A stretch of DNA of 64,000 nt from Tabrizicola sp. GTDB lineage: Bacteria > Pseudomonadota > Alphaproteobacteria > Rhodobacterales > Rhodobacteraceae. This document shows, piece by piece, positions 39,075-39,150 of the stretch (position 1 is the stretch's first letter; each line of letters begins with the position of its first letter). The DNA lies in the NCBI GenBank assembly GCA_025458105.1, contig JALOTD010000001.1, positions 26,777-90,776 on the forward strand, read 5' to 3'. The position numbers and the translations under genes are program-made. The notes beneath the pieces are model-generated. The model searched no databases. It saw nothing but the letters and a program-made list of their open reading frames with translations, and was not told the origin of the DNA.

Positions 39075-39150
39075 GCCCGGTTAGCTCAGAGGCCAGAGCT
39101 GCGCTTTTGTAAAGCGAGGGTCGGGGGTTCGACTCCCTCACCGGGCACCA
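39075..39150 (+). tRNA. tRNA-Thr(UGU), complete, island-encoded
   Basis: 76 nt with encoded CCA; acceptor GCCCGGT/ACCGGGC, D-stem GCTC/GAGC, loop TTTGTAA (anticodon TGT), T-arm GGGGG-TTCGACT-CCCTC. Confidence 0.93.

Follow-up and report, generated by a model that had tools for sequence, protein, structure and literature searches.

The 64 kb stretch of Tabrizicola sp. DNA analysed here (the window) carries a mobile island that splits the tRNA-Thr(UGU) gene of its host, most probably a single-copy gene, and very probably replaces the lost function with a foreign tRNA of its own. At both ends of the element (25085-39793) stands a direct repeat of 13 bp, TGATTTGTAATCA, which is the anticodon stem-loop of the host tRNA and is present as the left attachment core (attL, 25085-25097, + strand) and the right attachment core (attR, 39781-39793, +), giving a core-to-core length of 14,696 bp. 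Positions 1-41 of the host tRNA stand at the left end (5′ half, 25057-25097, +, cut after the anticodon loop) and positions 29-76 at the right end (3′ half with the CCA end, 39781-39828, +), both with a 100% match. When the flanks are joined, the resulting 76-mer is folded by ARAGORN as tRNA-Thr(tgt) and matches the intact gene of three genus relatives letter for letter, which upholds the claim of a preliminary description of this DNA that the element destroyed a UGU tRNA-Thr. A promoter-like element of the host tRNA, TTGCAC-N17-TATCTG (25017-25045, +), now precedes the 5′ half only; its layout, TTGCR-N17-TATCT, is kept upstream of tRNA-Thr(UGU) in nearly all genus relatives. The locus runs from an fbpB-like ATP-binding cassette permease gene through the tRNA to tfoX and glgP, an order that is uninterrupted in genome G026. 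It is very unlikely that a chimeric assembly or a mixture of strains has joined an element and a broken gene that do not occur in one cell: the assembly is a draft, but both flanks fit the conserved locus (fbpB, tfoX, glgP), the cores agree to the base, and two further elements described below, a sister element and an island on contig C163, independently show the same type of boundary.

Neither junction yields a tRNA. At attL, no tRNA is found above threshold (Rfam 20.3 bits against a gathering score of 29), and the hybrid formed there pairs at only two of seven acceptor positions and has broken stems; at attR, the Rfam search gives no tRNA match. The attachment site of the element (attP) lacks the 3′ half of the host tRNA, and integration therefore splits the gene. 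Islands that restore this gene are frequent, as in genomes G034 and G061, in which identical 3′ halves lie 13.5-14.3 kb apart, and the window element might be a decayed member of this ordinary class, with function restored elsewhere or by gene conversion. However, on the side of the integrase the 5′ half runs straight into non-tRNA sequence, and the two ends have just 13 bp in common, so no restoring half is present; moreover, the integrase open reading frame (ORF) is intact and the complete tRNA on the island is foreign in sequence, which makes such decay exceedingly improbable. A right end derived from the decayed antisense 3′ half of an inverted ancestor was also considered and rejected, the agreement of about 6 bp being too small.

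The island carries a complete tRNA-Thr(UGU) at 39075-39150 (+), identified by both ARAGORN and Rfam (60.2 bits) and representing the single tRNA call of these programs in the window. The right core begins 630 bp downstream of it, in agreement with the position given previously. Alignment of the island and host tRNAs verifies the acceptor sequences GCCCGGT (island) and GCCCCTA (host), the common loop TTTGTAA and a G27-A43 mismatch in the island tRNA. The preliminary description went too far, however, in stating that the two tRNAs differ across all stems: the D-stem is the same in both, the T-stem differs in one pair, and 54 of 76 positions are equal, leaving 22 that differ. Upstream of the island tRNA lies a promoter-like element of its own, TTGCAG-N17-TACATG (39038-39066, +), which agrees in spacing and position with the TTGCR-N17-TATCT motif native to the genus relatives. 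On the opposite strand, an ORF at 38704-39318 (-) runs antisense through the tRNA (VRESNPRPSLYKSAALASELTG) and is a spurious protein of the kind that tRNA genes typically yield.

The source of this replacement tRNA can be traced within the family. Across 397 family genomes from 396 genera, one other genome, G180, which belongs to another genus, carries the island tRNA at 76 of 76 positions (C23:3732-3807), and the next best match is 88%. In G180, which is 100% complete, this tRNA is the sole match to the UGU tRNA pattern and lies directly downstream of an fbpB-like gene, the same one that flanks the host site; on these two grounds, the G180 copy looks like a native gene of that genome. Its upstream element is TTGCAG-N17-TACATC. 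Because the exact island sequence serves as the sole UGU tRNA-Thr of a 100%-complete genome, it should be functional, G27-A43 mismatch included. A 33-base stretch of the island tRNA has no exact match in viral contigs.

Several side observations concern the same tRNA in other genomes. The tRNA-Thr(UGU) that adjoins the fbpB gene is strongly divergent within one genus (G180, G454 and G455), as it is in G026 in the same comparison, and the anticodon stem changes among this set; this divergence may reflect in-place replacement, past swaps or escape from TGATTTGTAATCA-dependent integrases. Genome G252 has a 3′ half of tRNA-Thr(UGU) at about position 454 of its contig C85, with no intact gene beside it, and at C13:12717-12792 a complete, slightly different tRNA-Thr(UGU); the two pieces are perhaps a restoring or swapping island divided between contigs. 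Two tRNA-Thr alleles in G272 were considered as a swap and rejected, since each adjoins its own fbpB homolog, which probably indicates a mixed assembly.

The host most probably lost its only UGU tRNA-Thr. The assembly comprises 4.1 Mb in 165 contigs and is 90% complete; it contains one tRNA-Thr gene each for GGT, CGT and TGT, the last on the island only, and a search with the host tRNA sequence recovers only the two halves, plus weaker matches to other tRNAs. The genome-wide inventory called for in the preliminary description thus contains no further intact tRNA-Thr(UGU). In line with this, a genus survey finds a tRNA-Thr(UGU) match in 29 of 32 genomes, among them all 23 of the good genomes, and each matching relative carries a single site, which is an intact tRNA. 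It is the single complete copy in the assembly, together with one copy per relative, that points to the loss of a sole gene. The tRNA might instead be incidental cargo, with a further UGU tRNA-Thr in the tenth of the genome that the assembly lacks: several expected tRNAs are absent from the inventory, tRNA cargo is common on mobile DNA and many phage tRNA genes are found. Nevertheless, this is unlikely given the single site in each genus relative with a match, the roughly 1 in 40 chance that a random tRNA would fit the disrupted anticodon, and the recurrence of the same anticodon match for Thr(CGU) in the same genome.

Three points weigh against the replacement of a sole, essential tRNA by the island. 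First, a draft of this completeness leaves room for another UGU tRNA-Thr. Second, only one of the 397 family genomes shows the split-tRNA pattern in its strict form, the window case being the single instance of its exact type. Third, because ACA is rare here (6 of the 102 Thr codons across five host genes in the flanks, and 23 of 189 in island genes), loss of the ACA-reading tRNA might be costly rather than lethal. By general wobble rules, the Thr(GGU) and Thr(CGU) tRNAs would not read ACA.

A second tRNA-swap island is present in the same genome, at C163:20232-35112. On this contig, 20232-20271 holds bases 1-40 of a tRNA-Thr(CGT), whose 3′ half begins at about 35065; the halves have a common 15 bp core, ACGTCATTCGTAATG, and all stems pair when they are joined. 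A complete but different tRNA-Thr(CGT) at 33879-33954, about 1.1 kb inside the right end, is the only complete CGT copy in the assembly. The layout repeats that of the window island: the 5′ half is followed by the integrase, the cargo and the replacement tRNA, and a short gap of about 1.1 kb separates this tRNA from the 3′ half. Additionally, a small ORF is common to both islands, standing beside the tRNA in the window (38704-39003, -, just upstream) and about 4.6 kb from the tRNA in C163; the two copies agree at 75% of amino acids over 99 aa and at 86% of DNA positions over 266 bp. A possible third swap concerns tRNA-Gly(TCC) on contig C85 of this assembly (1419-1640), where a complete tRNA is followed by 82 bp and then by the displaced 3′ half of a different tRNA-Gly(TCC); its 5′ half was not found, the upstream region consisting of a transposase and the contig end. 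Among 30 tRNA loci inspected with flanks of up to 1.5 kb, a displaced 3′ half with the matching anticodon turns up at just three, Thr(TGT), Thr(CGT) and Gly(TCC). The C163 island also encodes a 764 aa AAA_13 protein (L232:11661-13955, -; PF13166, E 5.5e-120), a family that includes PrrC/RloC-type anticodon nucleases; as the island brings its own tRNA, a functional link between the two is conceivable.

We propose that the tyrosine integrase would pair an attP core of about 13 bp with the host tRNA-Thr(UGU) gene at its anticodon loop and insert the island at a putative crossover point there, thereby cutting the host gene. The island tRNA-Thr(UGU) near the right end, presumably expressed from its own promoter, charged and essential, would then take over, and the cell probably lives on the tRNA of the invader. 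That this is replacement and not repair, as the preliminary description had supposed, agrees with the lack of a junction tRNA, of a further UGU copy in the assembly and of more than one copy per genus relative, with the promoter-like element of the island tRNA, with its identity to the sole UGU tRNA of another genome and with the CGU case on C163. If the element is still mobile, as is presumed here, precise excision would rebuild the host gene, and the cell would be deprived of a UGU tRNA only if the loss were partial or imprecise. The earlier idea of an addiction-like stabiliser, which was already tied to loss without precise excision, holds for that case only: dependency upon imprecise loss fits, but post-segregational killing does not, and because precise excision would rebuild the host gene, the relation would be a dependency and not a classical addiction module.

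A sister element suggests how such an island could arise. In an Antarcticimicrobium metagenome-assembled genome (G061; same coordinates in G103 of family f1), an integrase 61% identical to that of the window lies in a 14.3 kb element in the same target tRNA-Thr(UGU) gene, and eight further ORFs match in the same order, one of them at just 29% and partially. This element resembles the window island in target, size and gene order; unlike it, the sister is inverted, carries no extra tRNA, has an attP with the 3′ half and restores the tRNA. Specifically, its integrase adjoins the displaced 3′ half, and its far end restores the tRNA with an identical 3′ half. Read from the integrase side, the attP core is TGATT-TGT-AATCA in the window element and TGATT-ACA-AATCA in the sister. 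Because the anticodon stem is palindromic, orientation is set by the loop alone, and the comparison of the two cores suggests that a flip of the attP loop would convert a restoring into a non-restoring element. The complete genome G034 has another restoring island at tRNA-Thr(UGU). Core-to-core lengths are 14.7 kb in the window (25085-39793), 14.8 kb in C163 (20257-35065), 14.3 kb in G061 and 13.5 kb in G034, all in tRNA-Thr genes, and this similarity might reflect a phage-satellite packaging limit. No packaging or capsid-hijack genes are recognised in the window island; portal and terminase genes occur in the related island on C163.

The remaining gene content is that of a small island. The tyrosine integrase (25251-26597, +; 448 aa; PF00589, E 7.5e-14) begins about 154 bp from the core, and its closest relatives in the GTDB collection, at three loci, are 57-61% identical. 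It is followed by backbone ORFs of 253, 167, 181, 111 and 76 aa (26618-29433, -), which have no Pfam or PHROGs match; the last four are conserved in the sister element at 58-63% identity, and the predicted structure of the 181 aa protein is poor, with a mean predicted local distance difference test score (pLDDT) of 56. A helix-turn-helix, excisionase-like regulator (32294-32653, -; PF12728; PHROG 66) matches its sister counterpart at 76% over 58 aa. Next to it, a type II restriction-modification pair consists of a BstXI-type endonuclease (32668-33621, +; PF09552, E 1.3e-88; PADLOC REase_II) and a methyltransferase (33613-34740, -; PF01555, E 7.2e-42; PADLOC MTase_II). A 343 aa protein (34989-36020, +) and a T5orf172 protein (36617-37027, +) are common to the sister element by protein comparison. 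Between the tRNA and the right end, a 194 aa ORF (39177-39761, +) has homologs in nine other family genomes; the idea that it travels as a unit with the tRNA was rejected, no tRNA-Thr being present in the retrieved flanks of the nine homologs. Among the window island ORFs tested, no phage structural or packaging family is found, and the island does not qualify as a temperate phage. A tblastn search for phage relatives of the integrase found none, and viral contigs contain only distant integrase matches and no match for the 181 aa and 194 aa proteins.

The swap principle is already published for phages. Guerrero-Bustamante and Hatfull named tRNA-dependent lysogeny and proved it genetically in mycobacteriophages, among them Fionnbharth, Cain and Gaia, with cores of 8-17 bp and closely related integrases that restore the tRNA or do not; they left open its frequency outside actinobacteriophages and mentioned prophage Lj965 of Lactobacillus johnsonii (PMC10865867). 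The window island fits tRNA-dependent integration in its tyrosine integrase, its attachment site (attB) in a tRNA anticodon stem-loop, its 13 bp core, the lack of a functional tRNA at attL and attR, its own tRNA and, as far as a 90%-complete assembly goes, its single-copy target. Unlike the mycobacteriophages, it is a 14.7 kb restriction-modification island of an alphaproteobacterium with no recognised phage structural gene, its restoring relative is inverted, and the replacement function of its tRNA is predicted from sequence. In Sinorhizobium meliloti, a prophage inactivates tRNA-Leu(UAG) centrally and supplies a tRNA 97.6% identical to Octadecabacter genes (PMC11476347). The window element shares with it the central inactivation and the foreign replacement tRNA; unlike that intact prophage, it is not recognisable as a phage, concerns another tRNA and has a 100% match in another genus. 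Classical tRNA-integrating genomic islands (Islander) restore the gene (PMC4383910). With these, the window element has in common a tyrosine integrase, an anticodon-loop site and a displaced tRNA fragment at one end, yet it does not restore the tRNA, and its attP is without the 3′ half. In the part of the literature searched for tRNA-dependent lysogeny, titles and abstracts contain no report for non-phage islands. As far as we found, the new features are therefore the non-phage carrier, the recurrence in one genome, the traced tRNA source and the inverted restoring sister.

In mechanism, the window element is very probably the counterpart of tRNA-dependent lysogeny in a small non-phage island, possibly a satellite, and would show that tRNA-dependent integration is used beyond phages, by small alphaproteobacterial islands that carry defence genes. 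The restoring and non-restoring elements, in the same gene and opposite orientations, offer a natural pair for studying the evolution of this switch. More tentatively, and with the balance somewhat against it, small non-autonomous alphaproteobacterial islands, possibly phage satellites, could spread by tRNA swapping as a general strategy, each splitting a single-copy tRNA gene in its anticodon loop and delivering a foreign isoacceptor. If so, swapping would free attP from having to match the host gene, permit either orientation and gradually replace the native tRNA set, and with two firm cases and a partial one in a single genome it would count as a driver of tRNA gene turnover. Essential tRNA genes are usually treated as vertically inherited; to judge from the repeated cases within one genome, mobile elements may contribute to their turnover.
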